The notes below the pieces were generated by a model. That model saw only the letters and a list, made by a program, of their open reading frames with translations. It made no database searches and was not told where the DNA came from. From Halolamina rubra (lineage in GTDB: Archaea; Halobacteriota; Halobacteria; Halobacteriales; Haloferacaceae): DNA of 60,788 nt. Below are positions 53,943 through 60,788 of the stretch, one piece after another. Numbering within the stretch: position 1 is the stretch's first letter; each line of letters opens with the position of its first letter. The stretch covers positions 1 to 60,788 of the forward strand of contig NZ_BBJN01000014.1 in NCBI RefSeq assembly GCF_000739555.1, given 5' to 3'. The translations under genes were made by a program, and so were the position numbers.

Positions 53943-54062
53943 GTCGGGGGCTCGTCGCCGCGGCGATCCGGCGCGCGAGTCGGCGACGACCGCACCGACG
54001 CCGTCTGCGAGGAACCTGCGAGTTGTTCGACAGGTGTCGAACGAGGTTACGACGCGGGTGGA

Positions 54063-54072
54063 TAGATTTTTG
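54063..54072 (+). promoter_or_regulatory. TATA-like element upstream of malic enzyme
   Basis: TAGATTTTTG lies 25-34 nt upstream of the ATG at 54097 and helps choose that start over an in-frame ATG at 54034. Confidence 0.45.
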
Positions 54073-54096
54073 GCGCCCCCGATTGACCCCGAGCGT

Positions 54097-56352
54097 ATGG
54101 GACTCGACGACGACGCCCGGGAGTATCACCGGTCCGATCCGCCCGGCAAGATCGAGATATCGACGACGAAGCCGACGAACACCCAGCGCGACCTCTCGCT
54201 GGCGTACTCGCCCGGCGTCGCGGCGCCGTGTCGCGACATCGACGCCGACGAGGAGCGCGCCTACGAGTACACCGCGAAGGGGAACATGGTGGGCGTCGTC
54301 TCCAACGGGACGGCCGTGCTCGGCCTCGGCGACATCGGCGCCCAGGCCTCGAAACCAGTGATGGAGGGGAAGGGGGTGCTGTTCAAGCGCTTCGCCGACA
54401 TCGACGTGTTCGACATCGAGCTCGACGAGACCGACGTGGACGCGTTCTGCCAGTCGGTCGAGGCGATGGAGCCGACGTTCGGCGGGATCAACCTCGAGGA
54501 CATCGCCGGCCCCGAGTGCTTCGAGATCGAGCAGCGCCTCCGGGAGTCGATGGACATCCCCGTGTTCCACGACGACCAGCACGGCACCGCGATCATCAGC
54601 GGCGCGGGCCTGCTCAACGCGGTCGACGTGCTCGACAAGGACATCTCCGAGATGGAGATCACGTTCTCCGGCGCCGGCGCGTCGGCGATCGCGACCGCGA
54701 AGTTCTACGTCGAGCTCGGCGCCGACCCCGACAACATCACGATGTGTGACTCCTCGGGGATCATCACCGAGCAGCGTGCCGCGAACGGCGACGTGAACGA
54801 GTACAAGAAGGAGTTCGCCCGCGACCTGCCGGAGGGCGACCTGGCGGACGCGATGGACGGCGCCGACATGTTCGTCGGGCTCTCCGTCGGCGGCATCGTC
54901 TCCCCCGACATGGTGGCGTCGATGGCCGAGGACCCCATCGTCTTCGCGATGGCCAACCCCGAGCCCGAGATCGGCTACGAGGCGGCCCGCGCGGCCCGCG
55001 ACGACACGGTGATCATGGCCACCGGGCGCTCGGACTACCCGAACCAGGTGAACAACGTGCTCGGGTTCCCGTTCCTGTTCCGCGGCGCGCTCGACGTGCG
55101 CGCGACGAGCATCACCGAGAACATGAAGATGGCCGCCGCGGAGGCGCTGGCGGAGCTCGCCCGGAAGGACGTGCCCGACGCCGTCGTGAAAGCCTACGGC
55201 GACCAGCCGCTCCAGTACGGGCCGGAGTACGTCATCCCGAAGCCGGTCGACCCGCGCGTGCTGTTCGAGGTCGCGCCGGCCGTCGCCGAGGCGGCGATGG
55301 AGGAGGGCGTCGCCCGCACCGAGATCGACATCGACGCCTACTCCGAGAAGCTCGAGGCGCGGCTGGGCAAGTCCCGCGAGATGATGCGGGTCGTGCTCAA
55401 CAAGGCGAAGAACACCGACCAGCGCATCGCACTGGCGGAGGGGACCGACGAGAAGATGGTCCGCGCCGCCGCCCAGATCCAGGAGCAGGGGATCGGCGAC
55501 CCCGTGCTGCTGGGTAACAGCGACGAGATCGAGGGGATCGCCGCCGACCTCGGCCTCGACTTCACCCCGGAGATCGTCGACCCGCGCGTCGACGACACCG
55601 AGGCGTACGCCGAGCGACTGTACGAGCTCCGCCAGCGCAAGGGCGTCACCCGGAGCGAGGCGACCGAACTCGTCCGACGTGACACCAACTACCTCGGGAG
55701 CGCGATGGTCGAGACCGGCGACGCCGACGCGCTGCTGACGGGGCTGACCCACCACTACCCGTCGGCGCTCCGGCCGCCGCTCGAGGTGATCGGCACCGCC
55801 GAGGACGCCGAGTACGCCGCGGGCGTGTACATGCTGACGTTCAAGAACCGCGTCGTGTTCGTCGCGGACGCCACGGTGAACCAGGACCCCAGCGAGGCGG
55901 TGCTGGAGGAGATCACCAAACACACCGCCGAACTCGCCCGGAGCTTCAACGTCGAGCCGCGTGCGGCGCTGCTGTCGTACTCCAACTTCGGCTCGGTGGA
56001 GAACGAGGGGACCGCCAAACCCCGCGACGCCGCCGCGGCCCTGCGTGCGGACCCCGAGGCCGACTTCCCCGTCGACGGGGAGATGCAGGCCGACACCGCG
56101 GTCGTCGAGGACATCTTGACAGACACCTACGAGTTCTCGGCGCTGGACGAGCCCGCGAACGTGCTGGTGTTCCCGAACCTCGAGGCCGGCAACATCGCGT
56201 ACAAGCTGCTCCAGCGCCTCGGCGGCGCCGAGGCGATCGGCCCGATGCTCGTGGGGATGGACAAGCCCGTCCACGTGATGCAGCGCGGCGACGAGGTGAA
56301 GGACATCGTCAACCTCGCCGGCGTCGCGGCCGTCGACGCCCAGGGCGAGTAA
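54097..56352 (+). CDS. maeB: Malic enzyme with C-terminal phosphotransacetylase-like domain (MaeB type)
   Basis: The product is 751 residues. Residues 1-420 are a malic enzyme, with [38 protein letters not shown], the catalytic Lys-Glu-Asp region and the Rossmann [14 protein letters not shown]. The remaining 330 residues are a phosphate acetyltransferase-like domain ([47 protein letters not shown]). It converts malate to pyruvate, making NAD(P)H; in bacterial MaeB the C-domain is regulatory and binds acetyl-CoA. The ATG at 54097 starts the conserved [19 protein letters not shown]. It is upstream of the dppA-like gene by 175 bases. Confidence 0.95.
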
Positions 56353-56497
56353 GCCGGGGGCCCGGGAAACCGGCAATCCCGGCCACTGAAGGGTCGTTTA
56401 TTACCGATTACCCCCGTAGTTTTCCGGCCGCTGTTCTTCGGTTTCTGATGTATTCACCCGAAGCGAAAGGGGTGAGATGTGCGCCCGCGGCGCAGGG

Positions 56498-56527: not shown

Positions 56528-58180
56528 ATGTCTGACAAAGACAGTCCGGACGTGAGTCGACGGAAGTTCCTCGGCTTCGCGGGCGCAGCCACGGCGACGG
56601 CCGTCGCCGGCTGTGGCGGCAACGGCGGCACGGACACCGAAACCGAGCCCAGCGGCGACGGCACGGACGAGCCGACCGACACGCCCGCCGGCGACGACAC
56701 GCCGACGGAGCGTCCGGAGCCGGAGACCCGCGACGGCTACCTCCAGCGCGCGAACCGGGTCGCCCACGAGCAGGCGCCGTGGGTGTTCCTCAACCGCCAG
56801 TACTCCGTCTACGGCAAGAGCGACGACATCGAGTGGGAGGCACGGGCCGACGAGTTCATCGACGCCTACGCCATCTCGCCCGCGACCGACAGCGGGGACG
56901 ACGTGGTGATCAACCAGTCCCAGATGGACAGCGGGCTCGACCCGCAGGACCACCGCGCGACGCCGACGGACAACATCGTGATGCAGGCGTACGAAAAGCT
57001 GCTCGACCGCGACCGCGAGGGCGGTATCCTCGACTCGCTGGCCGACGACTACAGCCGGCAGGAGGACGGTCGCGTGCGGTTCCACATCCGCGACGGCGTC
57101 TCGTTCCACTCCGGTGACAACCTCACCCCCGAGGACGTGGCGTACTCGATCAACCGGATCGTGGACCCCGAGACCGGGATCGCCAGCCCCCAGCAGGACC
57201 AGCTGGCGGGCGTCACCGGCGCGGAGGTCGTCGACGGCGAGCGCGCGGTCGACGTGATGAGCGACGGGCTCAACCCAATCGTGTTCTCGCTGTTCGCGAG
57301 CTACGGGCCCATCATGAACAAGTCGTGGGTCCAGTCCAACGAGAACTCCTACATCAACCAGAACATCGACGGAACCGGTCCGTTCGTGCTGGAGACGTAC
57401 GAGCAGGGCGTCCAGGTCGTGTTCAACCGCAACGACAACTACTGGAAGGAGGCCGCGGAGATCAGCAGCCTCACGATCGAGTCCGCCAGCGAGTCCAGCA
57501 CGCGCGTGAACTCGCTGCTCTCCGACGAGTCGGACATCATCGTCAACGTGCCGCCCCAGGAAGTGAGCCGGGTCGAGGAGAACGACGGCAGCAGCATCGC
57601 GGCGGCGCCGTCGACGCGGGTCATCTTCAACGCGATGCGCTACGACGTGGAGCCGTTCGACTCCCCCGAGTTCCGCCAGGCGGTCAACTACGCGATCGAC
57701 CTCGAGAGCATCATCCAGAACGTGCTGAGCACGTTCGGCGACCAGACCGCCCAGCCGACGCTCGACGGCTACTTCGGCTACAACGAGGATCTCGACCCGT
57801 ACCCGCACGACCCCGAGCAGGCCGAGGCGCTGGTCGAGGAGTCCGGCTACGCGGGCGTAGAGGTCGAACTCCACACCCCGGTGGGTCGCTACCTCAACGA
57901 CGTGGAGATCGCCCAGGCGGTCGCGGGCTACCTCGACGAGCTCGAGAACGTCACCGCGAGCGTCAACCAGCGTGACTTCCAGGCGCTCGCCAGCGAGGTC
58001 GTCGACGGCAACATCGAGACCAGCCCGCACTGGTACCTGCTCGGTTGGGGGAACACCACCTTCGACGCGAGCCAGACGCTCATCCCGCTGCTCACCAGCG
58101 ACGGGAACCTCACGAGCTGGTCCAACGACGAGTTCGACCGACTCATCGAGGAGGCACAGAGCCTGCCCAGCGAAGAATAG
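56528..58180 (+). CDS. ABC peptide/nickel-type substrate-binding lipoprotein with apparent permuted C-terminal segment
   Basis: The product is 550 residues. A Tat signal (VSRRKFLGFAGAATATAVAG) ends at the lipobox cysteine 29. A Thr/Pro/Asp linker of about 35 residues follows. Residues 66-117, containing YLQRANRVAHEQAPWVFLNR and EARADEFIDAYAIS, correspond to text usually found at the extreme C-terminus of SBP family 5 proteins. The usual N-terminal start then follows (INQSQMDSGLDPQDHRATPT, then DLTPEDVAYSINRIVD). The C-terminus stops at DEFDRLIEEAQSLPSEE, just where that C-terminal text normally begins. The lobes otherwise look complete. It delivers peptides or similar solutes to the downstream permeases, whose first ATG follows directly after the stop. 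Confidence 0.88.
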   Translation: MSDKDSPDVSRRKFLGFAGAATATAVAGCGGNGGTDTETEPSGDGTDEPTDTPAGDDTPTERPEPETRDGYLQRANRVAHEQAPWVFLNRQYSVYGKSDDIEWEARADEFIDAYAISPATDSGDDVVINQSQMDSGLDPQDHRATPTDNIVMQAYEKLLDRDREGGILDSLADDYSRQEDGRVRFHIRDGVSFHSGDNLTPEDVAYSINRIVDPETGIASPQQDQLAGVTGAEVVDGERAVDVMSDGLNPIVFSLFASYGPIMNKSWVQSNENSYINQNIDGTGPFVLETYEQGVQVVFNRNDNYWKEAAEISSLTIESASESSTRVNSLLSDESDIIVNVPPQEVSRVEENDGSSIAAAPSTRVIFNAMRYDVEPFDSPEFRQAVNYAIDLESIIQNVLSTFGDQTAQPTLDGYFGYNEDLDPYPHDPEQAEALVEESGYAGVEVELHTPVGRYLNDVEIAQAVAGYLDELENVTASVNQRDFQALASEVVDGNIETSPHWYLLGWGNTTFDASQTLIPLLTSDGNLTSWSNDEFDRLIEEAQSLPSEE

Positions 58181-59179
58181 ATGTCGTACGGACGGTTCCT
58201 GCTGAAGCGGGGGCTTCAGGGAATCGTGGTGGTCTGGGGCGTGGTCACCATCGTGTTCATGCTCCGGTTCATCACACCAGGCAGCGCCGTGGACGCCGTG
58301 GCGCCGCTGGACGCCAGCCCCGAGCTTCGCCAACGGATCGCCGAGGAACTGGGGCTGGACGAGCCGCTGTACGTCCAGTATCTCGACTACCTCTGGGAGC
58401 TGCTCAACGGCGACATGGGGTACTCCTACATCTCCGGGATCGAGGCCAGCCAGATGGTGTTCTCGAAGCTGCCGGCGACGATCGAACTCGCTGTCGCCAG
58501 CAGCATCATCGCCATCGGGCTGTCGATCCCGCTGGGCGTGATCAGCGCGACCCGGCGCCACCAGCCCGCGGACTACGCGGCGACGACGTTCTCGCTGGTG
58601 GGGATCTCCACGCCGAACTTCTGGCTGGGGATCATGCTGATCCTGCTGCTGTCGGTGCAGTTCGGGATCTTCCCGACCAGCGGCCGCGCCTTCGGCTTCG
58701 TCCAGGCGTTCGAGATCGCCGTGAACCAGGGGCTCGCCGCCGGCGCCGACGCCATGTTCCAGTGGCTGCGGTACATCACGCTCCCCGCGGTGACGCTGGG
58801 GACGTACTTCACGGCGCTGATCACCCGGCTCACGCGCTCGGGGATGCTCGAGGAGCTGGGGCAGTCCTACGTCCGGGCGACCCGGGCGAAGGGGCTGCCC
58901 GAGTCGCTCGTCCGCTACAAGCACGCGCTGCGGAACACGCTGATCCCCGTGATCACCGTCCTCGGCCTGCAGCTGGGGACGCTGATCGGCGGCGCGGTCA
59001 TCACGGAGTCGGTGTTCTCGTGGCCCGGGCTCGGGACGACGCTGATCAACGCCATCAACGCCCGCGACTGGCCGATCCTGCAGGCGACGCTGGTCGTGAT
59101 CGGTACCGGGTTCGTCATCGTGAACCTGGTCGTCGACGCCGTCTACGCGTATCTCGACCCACAGGTGGTCGCTGAATGA
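58181..59179 (+). CDS. ABC transporter permease, DppB type
   Basis: The product is 332 residues with six membrane helices. The first helix reads GLQGIVVVWGVVTIVFML. A periplasmic-side loop with ELGLDEPLYVQYLDYL follows. The EAA-type ATPase contact loop reads YVRATRAKGLPESLVRYKHA. It forms half of the membrane channel of a dipeptide/oligopeptide/nickel importer. Its ATG touches the upstream stop, and its last 4 bases overlap the next permease start (ATGA), so the operon is translationally coupled. Confidence 0.95.
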   Translation: MSYGRFLLKRGLQGIVVVWGVVTIVFMLRFITPGSAVDAVAPLDASPELRQRIAEELGLDEPLYVQYLDYLWELLNGDMGYSYISGIEASQMVFSKLPATIELAVASSIIAIGLSIPLGVISATRRHQPADYAATTFSLVGISTPNFWLGIMLILLLSVQFGIFPTSGRAFGFVQAFEIAVNQGLAAGADAMFQWLRYITLPAVTLGTYFTALITRLTRSGMLEELGQSYVRATRAKGLPESLVRYKHALRNTLIPVITVLGLQLGTLIGGAVITESVFSWPGLGTTLINAINARDWPILQATLVVIGTGFVIVNLVVDAVYAYLDPQVVAE

Positions 59180-60218
59180 TCTCTCCACGTACGCTCAGAA
59201 ACCTCCGGAAGGAGCTCCGCTCCAGCGCGCTCGCGAAGATCGGTATCGTGCTCGTGCTCGCGATGATCGTGGTCGCGGCCTTCGCCCCGTTCATCGCGCT
59301 GCACAACCCGACCAACCAGAACCTCGACGAGAACAACCTCCCGCCGATGGGGTTCAGCCGGACCACCCAGGAGACCACCTCCGAGATGGTCAACGGCTCG
59401 CTCGAGGTGACCAACGAGACGGTGTACGTCAACGCCACCGCGAGCCACCCGCTCGGCACGAACTCGCTCGGCCAGGACGTGTACTCCCGGGCGGTGTACG
59501 GCGCCCGGACGTCGATGATGGTCGGCGTGTTGGGCACCGTGCTCGCCGCGTTACTGGGGGTGACAGTCGGGCTCGTCGCGGGGTTCTACCGCGGGCGGGT
59601 CGACGACGCGCTGATGCGCTTCGCTGACGTGTCGCTCGCGTTCCCCTCGCTCGTGTTGGCGATCGCGCTGATCGGGCTCTGGGGCCGGGCGGCCGTCGAC
59701 GTTCCCGATCCGTTCGTGGTGTTGGGGCTGGTTGACCCCGTCCGGCAAGCCCTGGGCTTGCCGACCGGGATGCCCGACTCCTTCGTGCTCCCGGGGACGG
59801 TGATCGTCGTCGTCGGCTGGTGAACTGGGTCTGGTTCGCCCGGATCGCCCGCGGCGAAGCGCTGTCGATCCGCGAGGAGGAGTACGTGAAGGCCGCCCGC
59901 GCGCTGGGCGCCAGCGACGCCCGGATCATCGGGCGCCACGTGCTCCCCAACGCGACGACGCCGATCCTGGTGCTCGCGACGATCCAGGTCGCCGCGATCA
60001 TCCTGCTCGAGTCGTCGCTCTCATTCCTCGGGTTCTCCGGGACGACGCTGTCCTGGGGCTTCGACATCTCGCAGGGTCGCGGCTACCTCTCGACGGCGTG
60101 GTGGATCGCCACCGTGCCGGGGCTCGCGATCGTGCTGGCGGTGATCGGCGTCAACCTCGTCGGCGACTGGCTCAGGGACGCCTTGGACCCCGGTATCGAG
60201 GGGGAGGGGGGTGTCTGA
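59176..60218 (+). pseudogene. ABC transporter permease, DppC type, disrupted by a one-base deletion at about 59817
   Basis: The full product would be 347 residues. The first part (59176-59823) has the N-terminal helix KIGIVLVLAMIVVAAFAPFI, the DppC hallmark LGTNSLGQDVYSRAVYGAR and helices 2-4. The second part, in the -1 frame to 60218, holds the EAA loop EYVKAARALGASDARIIGRH and the last helices. At the break the bases read GTC GTC GGC TGG TGA; adding one C gives GGC CTG GTG AAC TGG, the expected Gly-Leu-Val-Asn-Trp. As written, the protein ends at 59823 without the ATPase contact loop. It pairs with the upstream DppB-type permease. Confidence 0.9.
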
Positions 60219-60219
60219 G

Positions 60220-60788
60220 ATGGCCGACGAGATCCTCAAGGTGCGGAACCTGACGACCCGCTTCTTCACGGAGGAGGGGCAGGTCAACGCGGTGGAGCAC
60301 GTCGACTTCGACGTGCGCGACGGCGAGGTGTTCGGCATCGTCGGCGAGTCCGGCTCCGGGAAATCTGTCACCGCGCTCTCGCTGATCGACCTGGTGGAGA
60401 CGCCGGGGCGCATCGTCGAGGGCGAGGTGTGGTACCGCGACGCCGACCTCGCCGAGGAGCACCGCGACTCCCACCCCGAGGCCGTCGACGGCGACTACGT
60501 CGACGTGCGCCAGCTGCCGGAGGCCACCCGCCGGTGGCTCCGCGGCCCCGCGTTCGCGACGATCTTCCAGGACCCGATGAGCAGCCTCAACCCCTCGATC
60601 ACCGTCGGCGAGCAGATCGCCGAGGCCGTCGAGGTGCAGCGCCGCGCCCGCGCGAACCCGCGGCGCACGCGCTCGCGGACGCAGGGGTACGGGCTGGGTC
60701 GGCTGCTCGTCGACGCCGCGATCCCCACCCGGGAGTACGTGAGCGACGAGAGCCACGAGCGCGCGGTCGAACTGCTCGAGCGGGTCGG
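60220..60788 (+). CDS. ABC transporter ATP-binding protein, DppD type, cut by window edge
   Basis: The visible part is about 189 residues of an oligopeptide-type ATPase. It shows the Walker A region GIVGESGSGKSVTALSL, the Q-loop region TIFQDPMSSLNPSITVG and the family-specific insertion (RRARANPRRTRSRTQ) before the signature. The signature and Walker B lie beyond the edge. The ATG follows the permease stop by one base; an in-frame GTG at 60211 is an alternative that would overlap it. It powers import through the two permeases upstream. Confidence 0.93.
   Translation, partial: MADEILKVRNLTTRFFTEEGQVNAVEHVDFDVRDGEVFGIVGESGSGKSVTALSLIDLVETPGRIVEGEVWYRDADLAEEHRDSHPEAVDGDYVDVRQLPEATRRWLRGPAFATIFQDPMSSLNPSITVGEQIAEAVEVQRRARANPRRTRSRTQGYGLGRLLVDAAIPTREYVSDESHERAVELLERV

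Follow-up and report, generated by a model that had tools for sequence, protein, structure and literature searches.

In the window analysed here (the whole stretch of 60,788 nucleotides of Halolamina rubra DNA), one gene raises an unusual question: has a part of its product that normally closes the chain been moved to the front, and, if so, how widespread is the arrangement and how often has it arisen? A sequence-only reading of the locus had proposed a circularly permuted solute-binding protein, tethered through the segment that is normally its tail. This proposal is supported by the C-terminal position of the same segment in homologues, by equal length, by a shared operon, and by conservation across several families; the order of the parts, purifying selection, and a confident fold model are likewise in evidence. 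The gene very probably encodes a solute-binding lipoprotein of a Dpp/Opp/Nik-type ABC importer that is made as a natural circular permutant.

Parts of the Gene and Its Product

The gene and its neighbours are collected in Table 1. The gene is a single open frame, and the open reading frame listing starts it at an upstream ATG at position 56477; position 56528 was taken as the start because of the position of the signal peptide. R11 and R12 form the twin arginine of a Tat signal and Cys29 is the lipobox cysteine, and all three residues are invariant in 24 permuted proteins. The segment itself reads YLQRAN...DAYAIS at residues 71-117, to which the wider assignment of 66-117 adds a few residues in front. 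At the other end, the protein terminates in LIEEAQSLPSEE, such that the new C-terminus is the loop after the preceding helix, and the usual last helix and strand (approximately 50 residues) are absent there.

Table 1. Features of the permuted gene and its surroundings (positions in the window).
Feature	Position	Strand	Remarks and basis
Malic enzyme with phosphotransacetylase domain	54034..56352	+	upstream neighbour
Circularly permuted SBP_bac_5 lipoprotein gene	56528..58180	+	550 aa plus stop
Tat-type signal (RRKFL) and lipobox ending at Cys29	56528..56614	+	sequence
Low-complexity lipoprotein linker, residues 30-65	56615..56722	+	alignment, selection
Moved segment, residues 66-117, normally C-terminal helix and strand	56723..56878	+	homologue alignments, model
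Short joint from old C-terminus to old mature N-terminus, residues 118-125	56879..56902	+	alignments
Solute-binding protein (SBP) core, ending in loop after former penultimate helix (...EEAQSLPSEE)	56903..58177	+	Pfam, alignments, Foldseek
DppB-type permease	58181..59179	+	ATG directly after SBP stop codon
DppC-type permease	59176..60218	+	two overlapping frames (59176-59823, 59820-60218)
DppD-type ATPase	60211..60788	+	cut by contig end

A Segment Moved Rather Than Added

The proposed position of residues 66-117, between the lipoprotein linker and the normal start of the mature domain, is confirmed by local alignment, in which the segment's score within the window protein is 263 for the N-terminal half, compared with a background level of 31 for the C-terminal half. 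The claim that such a segment normally closes the protein holds as well, since in 40 conventional homologues the same segment scores 70-187 in the C-terminal half and 18-33 in the N-terminal half. The combined length of core and segment is 482-488 residues in permuted proteins and 481-501 in conventional ones (66-protein set, with the exception of one frameshifted permuted protein, L083), indicating that the segment was moved and not added. A profile of the permuted proteins, aligned to the solved structure of AccA (4ra1), also gives two pieces in swapped order, with profile positions 137-457 on chain positions 18-348 and profile positions 58-113 on 430-485, whereas a profile of conventional proteins gives one single piece; the second piece is weak by itself (i-E 0.74), and the alignment to 5u4o has no such piece.

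The moved segment is also maintained. Ten of its residues (P84, W85, Q91, S93, Y95, G96, W103, R106, D108, and E109) are invariant in the 24 permuted proteins. The pN/pS values for segment, core, and linker are 0.21, 0.22, and 0.58 in Halolamina and 0.37, 0.29, and 0.82 in Halobaculum; in Halorubrum, where the contrast is small, they are 0.29, 0.21, and 0.32. In three conventional genera, the tail ranges from 0.07 to 0.41 and the core from 0.15 to 0.39. These ratios indicate purifying selection on the moved segment. An alternative is that the segment, once transplanted to the N-terminus, has given up the C-terminal site and serves, for example, as a handle for interaction with the permease, with the core working in truncated form. 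The segment does now adjoin the anchor, but this explanation is very unlikely given the invariant motif residues, a level of selection similar to that on the core, and the confident helix and strand that the structural model assigns to the segment.

Fold and Family Membership

The window protein matches the Pfam family SBP_bac_5 (PF00496) over residues 171-527, covering profile positions 6-366 of 368 at 230.6 bits relative to a gathering score of 32.4. The canonical chain order, with the C-terminal helix and strand last, is not followed by this protein, and it is not a condition of the Pfam model. Herein lies a warning for annotation: family matches hide the permutation, and Pfam reports an ordinary SBP_bac_5 protein. 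The NCBIfam equivalogs for DppA, NikA, and OppA all fall short of their cut-offs, and the best of them (NF045468, Opp5A_nikA) scores so far below its own (123.8 versus 600 bits) that no substrate can be assigned.

For residues 62-550, an AlphaFold2 model reached a pLDDT of 89.1 and a pTM of 0.85 once the alignment had been deepened with conventional cores and tails as separate rows; with 31 permuted rows alone, the model had been of low quality (pLDDT 54.7, pTM 0.42). In the better model, the segment forms a helix (residues 68-82) and a strand (90-98; protein numbering). A Foldseek search of the model against the PDB found 5u4o (E 2.2e-32) and GbpA (3m8u, TM 0.79 at 2.6 A), and the best 50 rows listed are all solute-binding proteins, including DppA, OppA, NikA, AccA, and YliB (1uqw). 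The structures of DppA, OppA, NikA, and AccA, which belong to cluster C, resemble the model in core fold and differ from the window protein in chain order, and, judged by the matches listed, the model has a cluster C fold. Foldseek aligns in chain order, so the match supports the core and not the place of the segment. No permuted member was noticed among the PDB matches listed, although the profile and Foldseek searches were not designed to reveal one. The segment would presumably pack in its usual place, and the permuted chain most likely adopts the ordinary cluster C fold and functions like other binding proteins of that cluster.

Distribution of the Two Forms

Of 66 proteins extracted from the family's genomes, 26 have the segment solely at the N-terminal end and 40 solely at the C-terminal end. 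A scan of named genomes gave 78 loci (33 permuted, 43 conventional, and two that were frameshifted or cut by a contig end and left unclassed). The suggestion that this may be a conserved new topology for the transporter class is upheld. Neither two copies of the segment in one protein nor any other permutation intermediate was found in the 66 proteins, the 78 loci (two unclassed), or two further sets of 16 and 20, and a duplication with both copies kept was rejected on these grounds. These sets overlap, with several genomes entered twice (e.g., as L166 and L187), and the numbers of loci should not be read as numbers of genomes.

Searches with the permuted query extend this picture. In the family, 26 of 148 genomes match it from residue 1-9 to residue 510-550, the one ending at 510 being frameshifted. 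The recurrence proposed as a check was found order-wide, where, in a sample of 293 genomes, at least 27 give an unbroken match over the new junction (23 from the main permuted group and four from a second group, group A, described below), and these contiguous matches fall in six family codes among the matches listed. Phylum-wide, 23 of 294 genomes match, five of them contiguously, and all belong to the same order or closer, in a sample whose share outside the order is not shown. Permuted proteins occur in Halolamina, Halobaculum, Candidatus Halobonum, Halobium, Halorubrum (eight loci), Halosimplex, Halorarius, and Halomarina, with 11 further permuted loci listed without a genus. None of the 130 pattern matches in viral contigs encodes a relative. 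G368 aligned early on to a permuted query but proved to be conventional.

Recurrence also bears on the possibility that the contig has the gene's 3' end in the wrong place or that the gene was mis-called. The window genome is a draft of 71 contigs, and a rearrangement in assembly would be conceivable in it. The same arrangement was seen, however, in 25 other genomes of the family, in complete-chromosome records such as those of Halobaculum litoreum, Halorarius halobius, and Halosimplex pelagicum, and in group A. An artefact, which the sequence-only reading had asked to see excluded, is therefore ruled out by recurrence in independent genomes, and its probability is next to nil.

Two variations at the 3' end of the permuted gene are of note. 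In Halolamina pelagica CDK2 (L083 and L105), a frameshift interrupts the gene close to the 3' end, and its counterpart in another strain of this species (L175) is intact; H. pelagica also provides the named records nearest to the window (93-94%). In three loci from Halomarina and a metagenome-assembled relative (L114, L119, and L166), a Ser/Gly-rich tail of approximately 19-26 residues extends past the last helix and forms the new C-terminus.

The Importer Operon

The window gene is followed by genes for two permeases and an ATPase, as in an importer operon, with the DppC frame broken and the ATPase gene running off the contig. Among the named loci, a DppB-type gene lies just downstream on the same strand in 31 of the 33 that are permuted and in 41 of the 43 that are conventional, the exceptions being L142 (Halosimplex salinum) and L178 (at a contig end) among the former and L167 and L168 among the latter. 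The fetched upstream flank contains a malic-enzyme gene in the same orientation in 24 of the 43 conventional loci versus six of the 33 permuted ones, the latter from Halolamina, Halobaculum, and Halobonum. Together, these counts indicate that the operon is widely shared and the chromosomal neighbourhood only in part.

Several individual loci deserve mention. Compared with the intact dppC of Halolamina relatives, the window dppC has a spacing that is shorter by one base; the split is either a sequencing error or a real frameshift, and accordingly either the importer of this strain may be defective or the sequence may be faulty at this point. At L089:5504-8158 (G107), the permuted gene lacks a stop codon and continues in frame into the DppB permease, giving 885 aa, which is possibly a fusion of binding protein and permease in one genome or else a sequence error. 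Finally, Halobium salinum (L099/L130 and L074/L167) possesses, besides the permuted protein encoded in the operon, a divergent paralogue of conventional order, the latter with flanks in which no Dpp-type permease was detected.

Number of Origins

Judged from the core alone, the main permuted group requires one change of state on the tree. It forms a clade with support of 74/89, 96/88 (tree without L105, L152, L164, L178, and the unclassed L160 and L176), or 43/72 (a wider, hand-picked set of 75), depending on the tree, and is nested inside conventional proteins (96/88); from one further tree, 14 named near-duplicates were left out. In addition, the segment contains the motif L-[QE]-R-[AT]-N at 36 of the 47 permuted loci, all 36 being among the 43 of the main group and none among the four of group A, whereas none of 66 conventional loci has it; this pattern speaks for one shared source of the greater part of the main group.

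What is new here is group A, a second and distant permuted group (L183-L186, from families f15 and f4) that is approximately 42-47% identical to the window protein, shares the main group's breakpoint by alignment, and is closest outside itself to a conventional protein. Its best outside match by score is the conventional G193, and the conventional L231-L233 are 51-54% identical to it. Does the shared breakpoint reflect a single permutation, with the present pattern produced by later recombination or by reversion to the conventional order? Besides the shared loop, this explanation can draw on the conventional L232, which falls inside group A in the tree of the binding proteins (96/89, set of 75), and on a conflict between that tree and one of the DppB partners, which suggests that operon genes may have been exchanged. 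In the DppB tree (from which 15 named rows, the unclassed loci, and six without a usable DppB were left out), the main-group partners require four changes, versus one in the binding-protein tree, and a single clade for them has an AU p of 0.035. The main-group partners not forming one clade indicates either that genes for the binding protein moved between operons, as is hinted, or further origins.

Weighing against a single permutation, group A is nearer to conventional relatives than to the main group in both of its parts: its segments share 61.7% identity with the L231-L233 tails versus 47.4% with main-group segments, and its cores are 53.0% versus 43.0% identical, respectively. A single clade of all permuted proteins is rejected by AU tests (p 0.0012, delta lnL 90.5; p 4e-50, delta lnL 194.5), for which the groups were named after the trees had been seen, and on the tree of 75, one early origin could be reconciled only with several reversions. 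As for L232, a group A clade without it is not rejected in the binding-protein tree (p 0.25), and the DppB tree unites the group A partners (95/91) with L232 outside. A single permutation is therefore rather unlikely. Two permutations at one loop are the simplest reading, against which the position of L232 counts, and we lean towards the view that this one loop gave rise to two or more independent permutations of haloarchaeal cluster C binding lipoproteins, in situ within a conserved importer operon. If true, the loop is a permutation hot spot, suggesting selection for shifting the lipid tether to another surface point.

A Possible Mechanism and Its Significance

In the proposed mechanism, the chain would have been opened at the loop that separates the penultimate helix from the last one, so that the last helix and strand now come first and are tied via the linker to the lipid anchor, with the short joint connecting the two old termini. 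The linker would enter the first strand of the core in conventional members and the former last helix in the permuted ones. With the fold unchanged, the same solute would be bound by a protein hung from a different point on its surface, and the altered tether may matter. The proposal in the sequence-only reading that this changes the presentation of the lipoprotein to the permease is a geometric inference that reaches past the evidence. The permutation may have arisen by tandem duplication with loss of the ends or by transfer of a 3' piece. Permuted proteins and unpermuted kin in the same operon, at roughly 60% identity, make the origin and retention of a permutation directly visible, and related chains that differ in tether point allow the role of anchor position in solute handover to the permease to be tested.

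Comparison with Known Systems

The nearest comparison within the haloarchaea is with the conventional relatives (e.g., Haloprofundus marisrubri L133 and Haloferax marinum L143), which share family, operon, length, and lipoprotein signal with the window protein and have cores 50-66% identical to its own (43 conventional named loci), but carry the segment at the C-terminus. No earlier haloarchaeal, archaeal, SBP_bac_5, or cluster C permutant was found in the open PMC literature among the matches listed, by titles and the starts of abstracts, with subscription papers and preprints outside that scope. On the same basis, the only natural permuted binding protein was TpMglB-2 (Tp0684) of Treponema pallidum, a circularly permuted glucose-binding lipoprotein for which a "cluster Bc" is proposed (PMC4990184).

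According to that account, TpMglB-2 carries the first three strands of its N-lobe at the C-terminus and has a fourth hinge crossing, and Brautigam et al. proposed, without a test, that the permuted topology may be an adaptation to anchoring (PMC4990184). The window protein resembles cluster Bc in being a permuted, tethered binding protein (the tether being read from sequence) and does not have the cluster B fold, the PDB matches listed being SBP_bac_5-type proteins. Both cases are natural permutations with a lipid tether that occur in several lineages and cluster with transporter genes, yet TpMglB-2 has the cluster B sugar-binding fold (PMC4990184), whereas the haloarchaeal protein is an SBP_bac_5 member with its C-terminal helix and strand brought to the front. 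The moved part of TpMglB-2 is only 13% identical to its EcMglB counterpart (PMC4990184), relative to a mean identity of 56.3% between main-group segments and conventional tails. Finally, unlike TpMglB-2, the haloarchaeal permutants have conventional relatives whose genes occupy the same operon, and they probably arose twice.
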